Source: Chitinophaga filiformis (lineage in GTDB: Bacteria; Bacteroidota; Bacteroidia; Chitinophagales; Chitinophagaceae). Taken from it: DNA of 64,000 bases. Of this stretch, positions 10,847 through 52,085 are shown one piece after another; the first letter of the stretch is position 1; every line of letters begins with the position of its first letter. A program made the position numbers and the translations under genes. The stretch covers positions 123,581 to 187,580 of the forward strand of contig NZ_FNBN01000001.1 in assembly GCF_900102545.1 (NCBI RefSeq), given 5' to 3'. The notes beneath the pieces are model-generated. The model worked only from the letters and a program-made list of their open reading frames with translations, did no database searches and was not told the DNA's origin.

Positions 10847-12553
10847 ATGCAAAAACGCTGGACAGTCCGATCTTATCAACCGAAACAGGAAGCATTGCTC
10901 CAGTCGTCTTTGCGTATTCACCCGCTGCTATGCAGATTGCTCGTACAACGCGGTATGCATACTTACGATGAATCACGCCTCTTCTTCCGGCCAACACTCG
11001 CAGATCTGCACGATCCCTGGCTGATGAAAGATATGGATAAAGCGGTCTCCCGTATTGAACAGGCCTTTTTCAGAAATGAAAAGATCCTTGTTTTCGGCGA
11101 CTATGATGTAGATGGCACCACCGCCGTAGCTACTGTTTTTGACTTTCTGCATTCTCTATATAATAATATCGAATTTTATATTCCTCACCGCTATAAAGAA
11201 GGATATGGTATTTCCCAGCAAGGGATAGAATATGCAAGGGATAATGACTTTACCCTGGTTATTGCATTAGACTGTGGCATCAAAGCCATCGACCAGATCA
11301 CCTGGGCCGCCGGCAATGGCATAGACTTTATTATCTGTGACCACCACCTGCCGGATGCAATATTGCCTCCTGCTGTTGCCATCCTGAATCCGAAACAATA
11401 CGACTGCCCTTATCCATATAAAGAGCTGAGTGGTTGTGGCATCGGTTACAAACTGATCTCCGCTTTCGCACAGAAAAGAGGTGTGCCCGATGAAAAAGTG
11501 CATAATTACCTGGACCTGGTAGCTACCAGCATAGCTGCTGACATAGTACCAATGACCGGAGAAAATCGTGTACTGGCATTTCATGGATTAAAGAAAGTAA
11601 ACTCATCTCCACTTCCAGGCATACAGGCATTGATAGAACTCAGCGGATTAAAAGAACAACTGACCATCTCCAACCTTGTATTTGTGATCGCTCCACGCGT
11701 TAACGCTGCAGGCAGAATGGATGATGCAAGAAAAGCAGTGAATCTTTTCGTAGAGAGAGATAAGGATAAGGCAATGGAAATTGCCAAAGTGTTGCATGCC
11801 GACAATTTTGACAGAAAAGAAATAGACGGTAACATCACCAAAGAAGCAGTTGAACTGTTGCAGAACGATCTTACACTGCAGGATAAAAAATCTACCGTTC
11901 TTTATAAACCCGACTGGCACAAAGGTGTTGTAGGAATTGTTGCTTCCCGACTGATTGATAAATATTATTACCGGCCTACTATTATTCTTACACTAAGCAA
12001 TGATAAAGTGGCTGGTTCTGCACGTTCAGTTACCGGCTTCAATGTATATGAAGCCATTCACCAATGCAAGGAATTGCTTGAGAATTATGGAGGTCACTTC
12101 TATGCAGCAGGCATGACATTAAAGCCTGAAAATGTTGCTGCATTCCAAAAGAAATTTGAAGAAGTGGTAGCCACTACTATTGATCCGGATCTACTGGTAC
12201 CGGAAATAGTGATCGACACCGAAATACAACTGAAAGATATTACACCCGCTTTCTTCAATATACTGCGTCAATTCGAACCACTGGGACCGGAAAACCTACG
12301 TCCCGTTTTCCTCGTCAGAAATGTAACAGACAGCGGTTATTCAAGGCTTGTCAAAGATGAACATATTAAGTTCTCCGTAAAACAGGGCAAGTCTCCCAAT
12401 GCATTAACGGGCATAGGATTCTACATGTCCGAAAAATTCCACATTGTAAACAGCAAAGAACCCTTCGATATGGTCTTTACCATCGATGAAAACGAGTGGA
12501 ACGGTAAGATGAATCTGCAACTCAAAGTAATTGACATCAGGGCACATCACTAA
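10847..12553 (+). CDS. recJ: Single-stranded-DNA-specific exonuclease RecJ
   Basis: 5'-3' single-strand DNA exonuclease used in recombination and mismatch repair. The DHH phosphoesterase motifs are visible: DYDVDGTTA at about residue 85, DCGIK near 140, and DHHLPD at about 165. The DHHA1 motif GGHFYAAGMTL is at about 415, and a C-terminal OB-like domain follows. The length of 568 residues matches the family. No terminator is visible between this gene and the convergent esterase gene 33 bp downstream. Confidence 0.95.
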   Translation: MQKRWTVRSYQPKQEALLQSSLRIHPLLCRLLVQRGMHTYDESRLFFRPTLADLHDPWLMKDMDKAVSRIEQAFFRNEKILVFGDYDVDGTTAVATVFDFLHSLYNNIEFYIPHRYKEGYGISQQGIEYARDNDFTLVIALDCGIKAIDQITWAAGNGIDFIICDHHLPDAILPPAVAILNPKQYDCPYPYKELSGCGIGYKLISAFAQKRGVPDEKVHNYLDLVATSIAADIVPMTGENRVLAFHGLKKVNSSPLPGIQALIELSGLKEQLTISNLVFVIAPRVNAAGRMDDARKAVNLFVERDKDKAMEIAKVLHADNFDRKEIDGNITKEAVELLQNDLTLQDKKSTVLYKPDWHKGVVGIVASRLIDKYYYRPTIILTLSNDKVAGSARSVTGFNVYEAIHQCKELLENYGGHFYAAGMTLKPENVAAFQKKFEEVVATTIDPDLLVPEIVIDTEIQLKDITPAFFNILRQFEPLGPENLRPVFLVRNVTDSGYSRLVKDEHIKFSVKQGKSPNALTGIGFYMSEKFHIVNSKEPFDMVFTIDENEWNGKMNLQLKVIDIRAHH

Positions 12554-12586
12554 GTAATAATACTTATTACCGACTAACACTTGCTA

Positions 12587-13390
12587 TTACAACTTTACTT
12601 TTTTCTGTTGCAGCAGCCAGGTATATAATGCAGTATCTGCATATGCTCTTGTCCAGGCATCATGCCCTCCTGTAGGATTTTCCGTATACTTAACCAGGTT
12701 ACTTCCACATGCTTTTAAAGCATTCACCATATCCCGCGAGCCGGATACAGCTACCGTAGGATCATTGGCATTATGGAAGTCCCATATCGGCATATTCTTC
12801 AATACACAAGCCTGCGATGGCGTACCTGCACCGCTGATAGGCACAAGAGCCGCAAACTTCTCAGGACTTGTCTGTGCCCAGTTCCAGGTACCATATCCAC
12901 CCATACTTAATCCGGTTAAATAAACACGTGAACTATCCACATGATATTTCTTCAGCACTTCTTTATACAACTGTTGTAAAACATCAGTATTCCACCAGGA
13001 GGCAGTGCACTGTGGAGCAATCATTACAAACTGCTTTCCTGTTACCACTCTTGGTAAACCTATTTTTCTGATCACATTAATATCGTTTCCTATTTCCCCT
13101 ACACCGTGCAAAAAGATCACAATAGGCCATTTATAGGACTTTTTCTCATTGTAAGTGTCGGGAACATAAAGCAGGTAATCGTCAATATTTCCACCCTTGT
13201 AATCCATTGTTTTCACTGTAATACCTGGGGTTTGAGGATCAAACACGTCTTCTTTGGGAGGATCAGGAATTGTATCCGTTCCGTCGCCGCCGGGTGTTGC
13301 GGCATCATTCTTTTTGGAACATGCTACTATATTGCCTAATAGAACAATCAGTAGCACATAAAGAAATCTCTTAAATACTCTTCTTTTCAT
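12587..13390 (-). CDS. Exported alpha/beta-hydrolase lipoprotein (esterase, PHB-depolymerase-like)
   Basis: A 267-residue predicted lipoprotein: a basic N-terminus, a hydrophobic stretch and a lipobox IVAC at about residues 21-24. The alpha/beta-hydrolase core shows an oxyanion-side motif PIVIFLHGVGE, a nucleophile elbow GLSMGGYGTW, an Asp in HNANDPTV and a His in GGHDAW, the full catalytic triad in order. This matches the prolyl-oligopeptidase/phospholipase-like family often found in Bacteroidetes, acting at the cell surface or in the periplasm. The substrate is unknown; ester cleavage on plant polysaccharides is one possibility. It is convergent with recJ. Confidence 0.82.
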   Translation of the reverse strand: MKRRVFKRFLYVLLIVLLGNIVACSKKNDAATPGGDGTDTIPDPPKEDVFDPQTPGITVKTMDYKGGNIDDYLLYVPDTYNEKKSYKWPIVIFLHGVGEIGNDINVIRKIGLPRVVTGKQFVMIAPQCTASWWNTDVLQQLYKEVLKKYHVDSSRVYLTGLSMGGYGTWNWAQTSPEKFAALVPISGAGTPSQACVLKNMPIWDFHNANDPTVAVSGSRDMVNALKACGSNLVKYTENPTGGHDAWTRAYADTALYTWLLQQKKVKL

Positions 13391-47239: not shown

Positions 47240-48589
47240 ATGATAAAACCCAGTATACCAAAAGGTACCCGCGATTTCGGGCCGGTAGTGCTCAGAAAGC
47301 GGCAATACATTTTCCAGACCATCCGTGAAACATTTGAACTGTTTGGGTTCCAGCCTCTGGAAACCCCTACCATGGAGAACCTGGACACACTTACTGGTAA
47401 ATACGGTGAAGAAGGTGATAAGCTGATATTTAAGATCCTGGACAATGGTGATATCCTGGGACGCGCCCAACAGGCGAAGGATAGCCGGGAACTGGGTATC
47501 TTATTATGTGAAAAGGCCCTGCGTTATGACCTCACTATTCCTTTTGCAAGATATGTGGTGATGAACCAGAATGAACTGGCACTGCCTTTTAAGCGGTATC
47601 AGATGCAGCCGGTATGGCGCGGAGATCGTCCAGCGAAAGGCCGTTACCGCGAATTCTATCAATGTGATGCGGATGTAGTAGGTAGTAATTCATTGCTGAA
47701 TGAAATAGAATTGCTCTTAATCTACGATACTGTGTTTACCAAACTTGGTATGGAAGGATATGAGGTAAGGATCAACAATCGTAAGATCCTTGGCGCATTG
47801 GCTGAACTGGTAGGACAACCCGAGCTTCTAACTGACATTACCATCTCAATCGATAAGCTGGATAAGATAGGTCTTGACGGCGTTAAAGAAGAGTTACAGC
47901 AAAGAGGACTTTCTTCCGATGAAATTGCCATCATTGAAAACTTCCTCAGCATTGAGGGCAACAATGAGGAAAAACTGCAACAGTTAAGTACTCTCTTCAA
48001 AAACTCCCCTACCGGTCTGAAAGGCGTAGAAGAATTATCTTATGTGCTGCATACACAGCCGGATGCCTTCAAAACCACGCCGATCCTGGATGTAACGCTG
48101 GCGCGCGGTCTGAACTACTATACAGGTATGATCGTAGAAGTAAAAGCGCCTTCGTCCGTAAAAATGGGCAGCATCGGTGGCGGTGGCCGCTATGATGATC
48201 TTACCGGCCTGTTTGGTCTTCCAGGCATTTCCGGTGTAGGTATCTCCTTCGGTGTAGATCGTATCTATGATGTACTAGAAGAACTGCAGTTATTCCCTGC
48301 TGATGCACAACAGGGTACACAAGTGCTCTTTTTCAATCTCGACCGCCAAACGGAAGGTATTGCCTTCAAACTGGTGATGCAACTGCGTGGTAAGGGCATT
48401 GCTTCTGAATTGTTCCATGAGCCGTCAAAGATGGATAAGCAGATGAAGTATGCGAATAAACGGAATATCCCTTATGTGATCATTATGGGTGAGAGTGAGG
48501 TGCAGGAACAAGTGGTGAGTGTTAAGAATATGGTGAGTGGGACGCAGGAGAAAGTGAAGATGGTTGATTTAGTGAATTATAATTTCTAA
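47240..48589 (+). CDS. hisS: Histidyl-tRNA synthetase
   Basis: Class II aminoacyl-tRNA synthetase (449 residues). Motif 2 is seen in ALPFKRYQMQPVWRGDRPAKGRYREFYQCDADVVG, the histidine-specific motif in LARGLNYYTGMIVEV, and motif 3 in GVGISFGVDRIYDVL; the C-terminal anticodon-binding domain spans about 350-449. A complete, ordinary enzyme. It ends in a convergent arrangement with the small charged gene at 48635 and a shared terminator. Confidence 0.96.
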   Translation: MIKPSIPKGTRDFGPVVLRKRQYIFQTIRETFELFGFQPLETPTMENLDTLTGKYGEEGDKLIFKILDNGDILGRAQQAKDSRELGILLCEKALRYDLTIPFARYVVMNQNELALPFKRYQMQPVWRGDRPAKGRYREFYQCDADVVGSNSLLNEIELLLIYDTVFTKLGMEGYEVRINNRKILGALAELVGQPELLTDITISIDKLDKIGLDGVKEELQQRGLSSDEIAIIENFLSIEGNNEEKLQQLSTLFKNSPTGLKGVEELSYVLHTQPDAFKTTPILDVTLARGLNYYTGMIVEVKAPSSVKMGSIGGGGRYDDLTGLFGLPGISGVGISFGVDRIYDVLEELQLFPADAQQGTQVLFFNLDRQTEGIAFKLVMQLRGKGIASELFHEPSKMDKQMKYANKRNIPYVIIMGESEVQEQVVSVKNMVSGTQEKVKMVDLVNYNF

Positions 48590-48608
48590 GGAAAATAATA
48601 ATACAGGT

Positions 48609-48633
48609 AAAGGCCCGCGTGATGCGGGCCTTT
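48609..48633. terminator. Bidirectional terminator between hisS and the 48635 gene
   Basis: Perfect 10-bp stem AAAGGCCCGC / GCGGGCCTTT with a 5-nt loop, between convergent genes. Confidence 0.85.
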
Positions 48634-48634
48634 G

Positions 48635-48883
48635 TTATTTAATACTTTCAAGGAATTTCCGAACTCTTCGCTCTTCACCGTAGAAGAACTGGTCTTCCAC
48701 TCCCAGGCTATTGTAATAATCCTCTTCGATACGTTCCTCTAAGGTTTTGTGAATACCTCTTTTTCTGTCATCAAGTATTTGCTGCCAAATCTTCGCAACC
48801 CTATCTGCCCTTTCCTTTCTCAACTCTTCTCTAATTTGCTCTTCTTTCCTTTTCTCTTCCTCCTCATCTACAAAAATGATCAT
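48635..48883 (-). CDS. Small highly charged helical protein
   Basis: An 82-residue protein with a very acidic start (VDEEEEKRKEEQIREELRKE) and dense Glu/Lys/Arg throughout, predicted as one or two long helices with coiled-coil character; the only less charged part is YYNSLGVEDQFFYGEE near residue 58. No family recognised. It begins 21 bp after the proteasome-like gene on the same strand, so the two are probably one operon and may act together. Base composition is lower in GC than hisS next door. Confidence 0.65.
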   Translation of the reverse strand: MIIFVDEEEEKRKEEQIREELRKERADRVAKIWQQILDDRKRGIHKTLEERIEEDYYNSLGVEDQFFYGEERRVRKFLESIK

Positions 48884-48904
48884 AATTATAAATTTTGACG
48901 TTAA

Positions 48905-49876
48905 CTAATCTGGTTTTAAAATATTGTGCCCGGTTACATACCTGAATCCCTGTTTATCTATCACCGCTATTTTTATCACCCCACCTACAGTCGGAATTTT
49001 CTCTATAAATGTCTGAAAGGTCATTTCTAGTTTCAAAAAGAGATAAGCCATATTAACGGCCTGCTGCAGACTTAATTTTGATAAAGTCTGTTGTATTTCC
49101 GAATCTCCTTTCTTATATCCCAGTTTCAAATCGATCTTGTTAGCGAGTTGCCCCACGTAAACAGGGGTGATAGATTCCAGCGGCAAATTGAAATCCTCCA
49201 TCATTTCTTCTAATATGCATGGGATAAAGTCCAAAGATGAATGACTCTTTTCTTCTAAAATTTTTCTACTTATATTATCCTGACCTTCGATCACTACATA
49301 ACTCTTCTCAGATATTCTTTCATAACTCACATATTTCCACTCACGCTCCTCAATACCTTGCACAACTGCCTTGTCTATAACTATTCTATATATAATCGTC
49401 TTTTCAGTAATTGACTCGTAGTGAGTAAACAGCAATATACTTCTTCCTATATAACCTCTTACTGCAATACATGCTCTTACCTTTTCTTCCATAAACCTGC
49501 AAAAATCCATTACCCTGGTTGCAACCGTTTTGCTATAATAATTTTCGTCTTCCTCATTAATGGCAACCAATTCCTGTATCAGATGTTCAATCGTCTTACG
49601 TCCTATCTGTGAAGCTCCTGCTAATGTTATTGCAGTAAACTTATCGAACTGGAAAAGCTTTTCTGCGTAGTCTGTAGTATGAGATGGCTTCTTCTCAAAC
49701 AAGCCGATTAGCTCATTCCTGTTAATGCTGATCTCATTGCTGTTCGCATTCCCCTGTTTACGCTTTAAATAGTCCATGAACTGATCGTAAGTCACTACGT
49801 TCTTACTAAATGTGGCTAAAGAATCGGCGATCACCGCTACGCCTTTCTTTGCAATTACAGATGCAATAAAAGTCAT
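48905..49876 (-). CDS. Divergent proteasome-fold (Ntn-hydrolase) protein
   Basis: A 323-residue protein that I read as a divergent proteasome beta-subunit homologue. From ATG 49876 it begins MTFIASVIAKKGVAVIADS; Met removal would expose Thr1 and put Asp at position 17, as in proteasome subunits. After an insertion of about 39 residues, AEKLFQFDKFTAITLAGAS aligns with the strand bearing Lys33 (here Lys72). Later, LSLQQAVNMAYLFLK and TVGGVIKIAVIDKQG match the C-terminal helix and strand of the fold. The Asp166 and Ser169 equivalents seem to be missing, so activity is uncertain. The frame continues to a GTG at 49924, but that would bury Thr1. Lower GC suggests transfer. Confidence 0.65.
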   Translation of the reverse strand: MTFIASVIAKKGVAVIADSLATFSKNVVTYDQFMDYLKRKQGNANSNEISINRNELIGLFEKKPSHTTDYAEKLFQFDKFTAITLAGASQIGRKTIEHLIQELVAINEEDENYYSKTVATRVMDFCRFMEEKVRACIAVRGYIGRSILLFTHYESITEKTIIYRIVIDKAVVQGIEEREWKYVSYERISEKSYVVIEGQDNISRKILEEKSHSSLDFIPCILEEMMEDFNLPLESITPVYVGQLANKIDLKLGYKKGDSEIQQTLSKLSLQQAVNMAYLFLKLEMTFQTFIEKIPTVGGVIKIAVIDKQGFRYVTGHNILKPD

Positions 49877-50051
49877 TGGTTTTTGATTGGGTAAAACAAT
49901 GGTTTCGACAAAAGCACTAATCACGAATTTATATACACATCACAAACCAGCCAAATTATTTTTCACACAACAAACTGATAGGCAAATGGTTAACACAATA
50001 ACGTAAATATTATATAATAAAAAGCTCTACAACTATAATTCTATCGAATGC

Positions 50052-50087
50052 AAAAACGGCTGTCCGCATAAGCGAACAGCCGTTTCT
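50052..50087 (-). terminator. Terminator after dsbD
   Basis: A 14-bp stem (AAACGGCTGTCCGC with GCGAACAGCCGTTT, one mismatch), ATAA loop, and T run on the minus strand. Confidence 0.85.
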
Positions 50088-50105
50088 TTCAATAGTATAT
50101 GTTTA

Positions 50106-52085
50106 TTACTTTCCTTTCTTAAACGCTTCCAACCCACACTTCAACCAGCTGGCATATTCACTCGCACGGGGAGTATATCCTACAGGCTTTGTTAACAACT
50201 TCTCATCAGGGCTGATCAGCACATAATAAGGCTGCGAGTTGTTCACAAAATTCTCGGTTTGCATCGTAGCATATTTATCACCGATAGTTTTAATTTCCTT
50301 CTTACGACCTGTATTGGTAGTAAAGAGGAACTGCTGATCTTCCGGTAACAATTTCCTGTCATCCACATACAATGATACCAGGATATAATCTTCTTCTATT
50401 AATGTTCTCACTGCCTGATCAGGCCATACATTCTCTTCCATTTTACGACAGTTCACACATGCCCATCCTGTAAAGTCTATCAGGATCGGTTTGTGCTGCT
50501 CTTTTGCCAGTTTCAGCGCTGCTTCATAGTCATTCACCACATTTGCCTCAACGCCTTTAGCTGCGTCCTTATAAAGGCTATAACTCAATGGCGGAGGAAA
50601 ACCGCTGATCAATCTGCGGTTAGCATATTTGGTATTTGTTACACCTGGCAGCAGGTACAAAGTCATTGCAAGGAAGATCAGGGCCAGCACCCAACGGGTA
50701 GGACTGATCTTCTTCAATGGTGCATCGTGCGGGAAACGGATCTTACCCAACAGATACAACACAATGAGGAAACCACAGATAATCCACACGGCAAAGAATA
50801 CCTCACGTTTTACCAGTCCCCAATGTGTTACCAGGTCGGCATTGGAGAGGAATTTAATTGCCATTGCTACTTCAATGAAACCCAATACTACTTTCACTGA
50901 CGTGAGCCAGCCACCGGACTTCGGCAGTGATTTCAACAGGTTCGGGAACATGGCAAACAATGCAAAAGGCAATGCCAGGGCAAATCCGAAACCAGCCATA
51001 CCAACTGTCAGCTGCATAGCGCCGCCGTCGGTTGAGAGGGAACCTGCCAGCAATGAACCCAGAATAGGACCGGTACAAGAGAATGATACCAGTGCCAGTG
51101 TCAATGCCATGAAGAAAATACCGATAATACCACCTACGCTTGTTTTCGCATCCACTTTGCTGGCGAGACCGCTTGGCAAGGTGATTTCAAAGTAACCAAA
51201 GAACGAAATGGCAAACACGATAAAGATCACGAAGAAGATCAGGTTTAGCCATACGTTGGTAGAGATATTGTTCAGGATCTCAGGATCCAGTGAATCGAGG
51301 AAATGGAAAGGCAGGCTTAATAACACATAGATCAGGAAAATGAAGAAGCCATAAAGGCTGGCATTCAGTACTCCTGTCTTTTTATCCTGCGACTTTTTAG
51401 TGAAGAATGATACAGTGAGCGGTATCATCGGGAACACGCAAGGTGTCAGCAATGCAATAAAACCACCGATCACACCCAGGATGAACAATCCCCAGAGGCT
51501 TTTCTTAGCGGTTCCTTCTTCCCCACCACAGTTATTCACCGGATGGTCTTTGTCGATGGAAGCACGTTTCAGTGTTTGTCCGCCGGCGGTAGATTCCTGT
51601 AAGCCCGCTGCCACATTCACCAGGTTACCGCTTGCATCTACATTAAAACGGAACTTCACTTCTTCAGGACCTACCACTTCGTCGCCTTTCAGCGCCATGT
51701 AATTAACAGCGCCTTCCAGTTTTGTAACAGGACCATTCAGTTTTACGGTCACCAGCAGAGATACCTGGTTTTCGAAGTATTTGATCTCGGTATTATCGAA
51801 TAAAGGCTCCGGCGCCTTTTTCAGTTCTCCTTCTTCTGTGATACCGGTAATCGCAGCTGCGCTGTCGACCGTTACACGGGTATTAGGTTCATCATCTTTC
51901 ATGGTAGTGGAAAACAGCTTCCAATCTTTCTGTACAGTACCTTTCAGATGTAATATATATTCATGTTCACCCTTTTTCTCTGCTGTATACTCCCATTTGG
52001 CGACAGCTGCGGGAGCAGGATTCTCCTGTGCCCTGACAGCAAATACAGCGGTGATAAGGATAATGAACGTAAGCAACTGCTTCAT
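50106..52085 (-). CDS. dsbD: Thiol:disulfide interchange protein DsbD
   Basis: Inner-membrane electron carrier that passes reducing power from cytosolic thioredoxin to periplasmic proteins (659 residues). Signal peptide (1-19); N-terminal DsbD-alpha-like domain (about 25-150); eight-span CcdA-like core with paired cysteines in LLTPCVFPMIPLTV and SCTGPILGSLLAG; C-terminal thioredoxin domain with CVNC in GWACVNCRKMEENVW. In the N-domain, the place of the usual redox cysteines reads VNYMALKGDEVVGPEEVKF, with no Cys, so that step has probably moved to another protein, perhaps the paralogue at 52202. Confidence 0.93.
   Translation of the reverse strand: MKQLLTFIILITAVFAVRAQENPAPAAVAKWEYTAEKKGEHEYILHLKGTVQKDWKLFSTTMKDDEPNTRVTVDSAAAITGITEEGELKKAPEPLFDNTEIKYFENQVSLLVTVKLNGPVTKLEGAVNYMALKGDEVVGPEEVKFRFNVDASGNLVNVAAGLQESTAGGQTLKRASIDKDHPVNNCGGEEGTAKKSLWGLFILGVIGGFIALLTPCVFPMIPLTVSFFTKKSQDKKTGVLNASLYGFFIFLIYVLLSLPFHFLDSLDPEILNNISTNVWLNLIFFVIFIVFAISFFGYFEITLPSGLASKVDAKTSVGGIIGIFFMALTLALVSFSCTGPILGSLLAGSLSTDGGAMQLTVGMAGFGFALALPFALFAMFPNLLKSLPKSGGWLTSVKVVLGFIEVAMAIKFLSNADLVTHWGLVKREVFFAVWIICGFLIVLYLLGKIRFPHDAPLKKISPTRWVLALIFLAMTLYLLPGVTNTKYANRRLISGFPPPLSYSLYKDAAKGVEANVVNDYEAALKLAKEQHKPILIDFTGWACVNCRKMEENVWPDQAVRTLIEEDYILVSLYVDDRKLLPEDQQFLFTTNTGRKKEIKTIGDKYATMQTENFVNNSQPYYVLISPDEKLLTKPVGYTPRASEYASWLKCGLEAFKKGK

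Follow-up and report, generated by a model that had tools for sequence, protein, structure and literature searches.

Here, we describe two adjacent genes of Chitinophaga filiformis which we take, with a probability of about 0.6, to form a mobile accessory module of a putative Thr1 amidohydrolase or transpeptidase with proteasome fold and a dedicated small partner, which would serve the enzyme as regulator or as substrate. Both genes lie in a stretch of 64,000 nt (assembly GCF_900102545.1, contig NZ_FNBN01000001.1, positions 123,581-187,580 of the forward strand), in the following called the window. The arrangement with the partner gene is the new part, as nothing in print was found on a recurring two-gene pair of this kind. 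The features of the locus are listed in Table 1.

Table 1. Features of the two-gene locus and its flanks; positions are those of the window, names of flanking genes were assigned by eye
Feature	Position	Strand	Remarks
hisS	47240..48589	+	strand opposite to the two genes
Small partner ORF, highly charged	48635..48883	-	82 aa, 21 nt downstream of the proteasome-like gene
Proteasome-like gene (PMI-6-like), predicted Thr1 Ntn-hydrolase	48905..49876	-	323 aa, ATG start giving Met-Thr
Lys73 codon (Lys33 equivalent), strand AEKLFQFDKFTAITLAG	49658..49660	-	invariant 16/16
Two predicted insertion helices (residues 30-43, 53-60), between the Asp17 and Lys33 strands	49697..49789	-	AlphaFold2, pLDDT about 61-68
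Asp18 codon (Asp17 equivalent)	49823..49825	-	invariant 16/16
Thr2 codon, predicted N-terminal nucleophile (Thr1 once Met is removed)	49871..49873	-	16/16; coordinate from the ORF start
Terminator-like hairpin with T run, behind the upstream dsbD-like gene	50043..50095	-	RNA fold -29.1 kcal/mol, z -7.86
dsbD-like gene	50106..52085	-	same strand as the proteasome-like gene

The proteasome-like gene and its product

The open reading frame consists of 323 codons plus stop, and its product begins with M-T-F-I-A-S-V. We chose the ATG at 49876 over an alternative GTG located 16 codons upstream because the start-codon pattern of the relatives favours it. In 11 of 16 full-length sequences, the window protein counted, the Met-Thr ATG is the sole possible in-frame start, and the upstream in-frame starts of the remaining five are GTG or TTG only. 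The initial annotation, which had let the protein begin with Met-Thr at this ATG, is thus borne out, and the same pattern makes a propeptide unlikely. A chance ORF is excluded by the conservation across homologues. The strong hairpin after the dsbD-like gene suggests that the enzyme gene and the small ORF probably form a transcription unit separate from that gene; the list given by a consensus terminator scan does not contain this hairpin.

The AlphaFold2 model of the proteasome-like protein, built from 14 sequences, is of moderate quality (pLDDT 68.6, pTM 0.63). Its elements follow the order strand-strand, two inserted helices, strand-strand, two helices, four strands, helices, strand-strand, which is the order of a proteasome subunit to which a pair of helices is added between the Asp17 strand and the Lys33 strand, along with further helical segments ahead of the final two strands. 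Helices H1 and H2 are present in the model (residues 96-109 and 118-140), and four helices (201-207, 214-229, 238-266 and 270-292) are predicted where two are expected, with low pLDDT in parts. A Foldseek search against the PDB gave 460 matches at E<=0.001 (best E 1.4e-6), and 50 out of 50 among the matches listed are proteasome structures. Their rmsd is high (about 8-16 A), and therefore the topology is supported rather than the detail. The top match among the viral structures of BFVD is annotated as proteasome beta (E 3.7e-7), and no confident match to a non-Ntn fold occurred.

Direct sequence evidence for membership in the proteasome family is weak. Matches to PF00227 at E<=1 were obtained for three of 14 members (best E 0.0088), one match at E 0.13 corresponding to 12.4 bits, where the cut-off is 22.4. 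Among PDB sequences the family profile has three weak matches, of which the best, at E 0.28, is to a proteasome beta subunit, with AEKLFQFDKFTAITLAG placed on its Lys33 strand AKKLYKIDDYIAMTIAG. Single-sequence searches of the window protein against Pfam, NCBIfam and PADLOC yielded nothing significant, its best PHROG match has an E-value of 0.016, and an hhalign profile comparison with 12 HslV-like sequences was unsuccessful. With neither a significant PF00227 match nor success in hhalign, an identity as HslV or 20S subunit was rejected.

The conserved residues give a clearer picture. We used a 16-row alignment without the broken copies L017, L028, L030, L031 and L032; L001-L004 were dropped as duplicates of the window, L015, L016 and L023. 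Invariant in 16/16 are Met1, Thr2, Asp18, Ser19, Lys73, Gly87, Gly198, Gln199, Pro295, Val297, Gly298 and Gly299, which in Thr1 numbering includes Thr1, Asp17, Lys72 and Gly86. The spacing from Lys to Gly amounts to 14 residues in all 16 sequences, equal to the interval from Lys33 to Gly47, and the distance from Asp to Lys is 50-55 residues versus 16 between Asp17 and Lys33, indicating an insertion of 34-39 residues. This set is conserved beyond chance, since it is kept in relatives from Bacteroidota and from one Ignavibacteriota MAG whose identity to the window protein is 29-87%. Thr1, Asp17, Lys33 and Gly47 are named as key residues in the respective passages of Fuchs, Alva & Lupas 2021 (PMC8665760).

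Together, the model, the proteasome matches of Foldseek and the residue set confirm, as far as sequence and predicted structure reach, the divergent proteasome fold proposed in the initial annotation. The details given there, i.e., an Asp17 equivalent and a Lys33 strand behind an insertion of about 39 residues, also hold in the homologues, with 39 as the correct value for the window protein. The equivalents of Asp166 and Ser169, which we take to be residues 294 and 297 from a gapless alignment at the GG, made by eye on a 20S sequence, had been described as replaced by hydrophobic residues. This is so in 16/16, with Ile, Val or Leu at residue 294 (14/1/1) and Val throughout at residue 297. The Ser129 equivalent is presumably Gln199, according to the same by-eye alignment.

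The expectation that the host lacks a 20S proteasome agrees with our data as well, as neither HslV nor 20S subunits were found by PF00227 over cut-off in the own genome. Such matches occur in 45 of 61 sampled genomes of the phylum versus 1 of 15 of the own class (own genome included). One match of the own genome at E 0.002 was rejected; it is below the cut-off and lies inside a 407-aa ORF, glycosidase-type by eye.

Comparison with described proteasome-like families

The survey by Fuchs, Alva & Lupas 2021 (PMC8665760) describes 22 proteasome-like families. One of these is PMI-6 (Proteasome homolog with Multiple Insertions 6), with 17 sequences at 90% identity, a two-helix insertion between S3 and S4 and a further insertion between H3 and H4; it is rare and found in Bacteroidetes, some Proteobacteria and other bacteria. 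The window protein very probably belongs to this branch, since size, two-helix insertion at S3/S4, enlarged helix region and taxonomy fit, the comparison being one with the published description of PMI-6. Both have the proteasome-like fold with Thr1, Asp17, Lys33 and Gly47, the insertion helices are predicted at the corresponding place (residues 30-43 and 53-60), and the extra helical material lies roughly where the H3/H4 insertion is described. The relatives found here are likewise rare: the 18 loci fall in Bacteroidota, except for one in an Ignavibacteriota MAG and one in a MAG with the label Beijerinckiaceae. The family is thus probably not new, as had initially been considered. One relative (L029) comes from Solitalea longa, which is presumably also the source of the PMI-6 representative WP_103790100.1.

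In the passages on genomic context, the 2021 paper reports none that hints at a function of proteasome-like families (PMC8665760), unlike the situation here with its recurring downstream partner gene. In full-text literature the name PMI-6 was found solely in Fuchs et al. 2021. This paper appears in the reference list of a 2026 review (PMC13022661), and titles and abstract openings among the citing works and the proteasome-like defence papers listed revealed no follow-up of PMI-6.

Connectase is a further point of comparison. According to the passages on its structure (PMC8665760), it shares with the window protein the proteasome fold without propeptide, and the two-helix insertion of PMI-6 sits where connectase has its specificity insertion; by analogy, this would slightly favour a high specificity. 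Unlike the window protein, which is bacterial and has both helices in its model, connectase is archaeal and lacks H1/H2. With 20S beta subunits and HslV the family has in common the core fold and the equivalents of Thr1, Asp17, Lys33 and Gly47. It differs from them by the insertion of 34-39 residues and the larger helix region, and the window protein has no Asp166/Ser169 equivalents (by eye), a PF00227 score below the cut-off and probably no propeptide. No AAA+ gene was seen among the immediate neighbours of the proteasome-like genes.

The small downstream ORF

A stand-alone family, which the initial annotation had thought possible, is not what we find: all 19 loci whose 3' end is complete carry a small charged ORF of 54-86 aa directly 3' of the enzyme gene. 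Since L017, L030 and L031 retain their 3' ends, they were counted; left out were L028 (split gene), L032 (contig end), L040 (fragment) and L041 (distant homologue). A rule that was set after the loci had been inspected (ATG 0-115 nt past the stop, 50-95 codons) holds for 18 of the 19 loci, versus 0.88 expected from dinucleotide shuffles, these loci not being independent: the window and L015-L018 all have their copy at a single site, and L025, L026 and L031 are closely related. In the nineteenth locus, L030, the small ORF overlaps the enzyme stop by four bases. L038 and L039 were found after the idea of a partner had arisen, and both carry the small ORF. A twentieth partner came to light unplanned: in L028 it lies 44 nt past the C-terminal part of an enzyme copy split by an IS element. 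Behind the fragment L040, an unrelated-looking ORF of 83 codons starts 105 nt downstream, and the partner profile has no match in this genome.

The partner ORF is under purifying selection, with dN 0.06-0.11 and dS 0.24-0.36 in three Chitinophaga comparisons and dN 0.03 and dS 0.28 between two Pedobacter species. Homology between the partner type of the window (Chitinophaga group, 5 loci) and the common type was not detected, and a common origin of the two was discarded as a candidate. Family-wide, the identity of the partner therefore rests on position, size and charge. In a leave-one-out test within the common type, the profile placed 11 of 13 partners first among 942 ORFs and failed for L023 and L039; this set is without L026, L028 and the five partners of the window's type. 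Across 30 genomes, strong matches of the partner profile (E<=1e-10) occur solely beside the enzyme gene, one in each of 14 genomes, four of which show weak extra matches (E 0.07-0.3). As the profile was built from the strong matches, only the absence elsewhere is informative: the other sixteen genomes (14 without the gene, one truncated contig, one fragment) contain nothing better than E 0.003. Among 60 genomes of the genus, three have the Chitinophaga-type partner, and these are exactly the enzyme carriers; one further match is weak (E 0.02).

The partner of L017 (8984-9244) has a C-terminal part nearly identical to that of the window's partner and a diverged N-terminal part, which suggests recombination or different constraints on the two halves.

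For the L020 partner, a single helix (residues 2-55) followed by an extended tail is predicted (pLDDT 88.1). Small, charged and mostly helical proteins encoded beside a proteasome gene are known from actinobacteria in the form of Pup, whose defining motif is a C-terminal Gly-Gly-Glu/Gln. The partners resemble Pup in these general features and in their position beside a proteasome-like gene, and differ in that the motif is found in none of 20 aligned partners (15 of the common type, 5 of the window's type). No Pup-ligase gene was recognised by eye among the neighbours read.

One might suppose that the enzyme has in the small protein a substrate or ligation partner of its own, so that an acyl intermediate of Thr1 with a specific segment of that protein would be resolved by hydrolysis or, as in connectase, by transfer. 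One small ORF stands beside each enzyme, ten of the 15 aligned common-type partners share a G/N-K/R-x-hydrophobic tail (counted by eye), and the two-helix insertion, which the passages on PMI-6 place at the position of connectase's specificity insertion (PMC8665760), is part of our model, all of which fits a substrate. However, Met1 is the only invariant residue of the 15 partners, and the missing common motif slightly disfavours a fixed cleavage site as far as the alignment goes. Moreover, the tail is missing in L025, L026, L027, L031 and the window's own type, and H1/H2, described as missing from connectase in the same paper, are present in our model. We consider an exclusive role as substrate unlikely and keep to the broader reading of a module with a dedicated partner, be it regulator or substrate.

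Distribution of the pair and proposed mechanism

The presence of the window protein is patchy. It was found in 3 of 99 genomes of relatives, the own included, and, across the phylum, in 4 of 395 genomes; apart from the own genome, one of these matches is full-length and two are partial. A scan of a species-level genome collection yielded 18 loci from Chitinophaga, Pedobacter, Mucilaginibacter, Solitalea, Flavobacterium, other Bacteroidota, the Ignavibacteriota MAG and the MAG labelled Beijerinckiaceae, which may be misbinned, because its neighbour genes look Bacteroidota-like by eye. Among 351 genomes of the Pedobacter family, eight matched: six with full-length copies (four of them already among the 18 loci), one with the C-terminal fragment L040 and one with the distant homologue L041.

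The window and L015-L018 have their copies in the same place, flanked by hisS and the dsbD-like gene (L017 and L018 by eye). At the 30 loci with the closest hisS, out of 60 in the genus, the pair is held by three. In G010, G024, G027 and G050, where the end of the dsbD-like gene is well conserved (at least 79.7% identity), it is absent and about 58-108 bp separate hisS from that gene. A gain of the pair is the simpler reading than a loss. By eye, the interval between hisS and the dsbD-like gene (48590-50105 in the window; L079-L089) is variable within the genus: some genomes have almost nothing there, others the two-gene module, a member of a family of small VYDV-containing proteins or a gene that resembles a transporter gene.

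Away from this site, the genomic context varies between loci, as judged by eye. Transposases are found near L024, L026 and L042 and an integrase near L043, and in L028 the parts of the gene lie several kilobases apart with an IS1595 transposase in between. Transposase genes of IS1595 (ISXO2-type) adjoin or interrupt three copies, namely L026, L028 and L042. Broken copies (L017, L028, L030, L031, L032 and the fragment L040) suggest that the two-gene module is dispensable, unless some of them are assembly errors, which is possible. Little can be drawn from the tree, as 8 of its 14 inner branches are open and the outgroup branch is very long. A phage or plasmid origin was rejected after phage records, plasmid records and two viral-contig scans had given no match, with the reservation that records near the window's genome may be missing from these collections.

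Some further proteasome-like genes and gene neighbourhoods were noted. L005, L008, L010, L011, L012 and L013 encode Bacteroidota proteins of 233 to about 430 aa that start with Met-Ser or Met-Thr and represent at least two other architectures. L005 matches phrog_5990 (5.3e-7), and among the ATG ORFs of 45-100 aa at these loci the partner profile never fell below E 0.8. The contig with the broken PMI-6-like copy L030 carries a second proteasome-like ORF (12015-12851) with an apparent signal peptide, FIVEAICRNGIVVTSDSRAS, as judged by eye; a Pfam match was not found for it. In Pedobacter boryungensis (L022, 4562-7673), a ubiquitin-like conjugation cassette lies upstream of the proteasome-like gene, consisting of genes for a Multi_ubiq protein, a small protein with a weak DUF7665 match, a JAB/BilC-like and a ThiF/BilD-like protein. 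In L044 (6879-11077), a distant Met-Thr protein of 290 aa is encoded between an Mrr-nSTAND3 gene and a small membrane-protein-like ORF; this locus is possibly a defence operon with a proteasome-fold component.

Such neighbours raise the question of a defence or toxin-antitoxin-like module, in which a protease kept silent by a small helical antagonist would become active under phage infection or other stress. A type I restriction-modification operon ends 42 nt upstream in L029, the Multi_ubiq/JAB/E1 cassette of L022 with its BilC and BilD matches is located 327 nt upstream, and the Mrr-nSTAND3 gene adjoining the distant homologue L041/L044 scores as candidate defence protein PDC-S73 (PADLOC, 1.1e-154). 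The mobile-element genes named above, the occurrence in 3 of 60 genus genomes and the same site being empty in close relatives point in the same direction. Yet these defence-gene neighbours are single cases without a background rate, PADLOC has no match for either gene of the pair, the window's copy resides between hisS and a dsbD-like gene, and no phage, plasmid or viral contig matched. A primary role in defence thus appears rather improbable to us.

A catalytically dead or structural relative, whose conserved residues would reflect fold instead of chemistry, is suggested by the loss of the Ser129, Asp166 and Ser169 equivalents (Gln199, Ile/Val/Leu294 and Val297, by eye), but the invariance of Thr2, Asp18, Lys73 and Gly87 despite identities down to 29%, the constant Lys-Gly spacing and Ser or Thr at position 2 even in the distant L005, L010, L011, L012 and L041 make this highly unlikely.

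For the two-gene accessory module, we propose the following mechanism. Gene 1 would encode a proteasome-like N-terminal-nucleophile amidohydrolase without propeptide. Methionine aminopeptidase cleaves off Met when Thr comes next, and removal of Met1 would leave Thr1 free as the nucleophile. The Asp17 and Lys33 equivalents would complete the triad, and the Gly47 equivalent would provide the oxyanion hole. Because of the inserted helices and the enlarged helix 3/4 region, we would expect a selective peptidase or transpeptidase rather than a plain double ring of 20S type. Gene 2 would supply a dedicated helical partner of 54-86 aa, probably on the enzyme's transcript, which most likely binds the enzyme and restrains or activates it, or is its specific substrate. 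In those common-type partners that have it, the extended tail is a candidate contact; partners of the window's type would have to do without.

More tentatively, and with a less than even chance in our view, the partner could take over in trans the role of a propeptide, of an activator or of a Pup-like tag, its tail pairing with the active-site strands, in a mobile system where release of the enzyme serves a stress or phage response. If this is true, none of the families named in 2021 would have had a partner proposed for it before, as far as our literature searches show. The partner gene gives a little-studied branch of proteasome-like proteins a first handle on function, and enzyme and partner make up a small two-protein system that is open to direct expression and assay. 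The pair could tell us whether small protein partners govern those proteasome-fold enzymes that lack an AAA+ unfoldase, and whether a connectase-like insertion marks another protein ligase.
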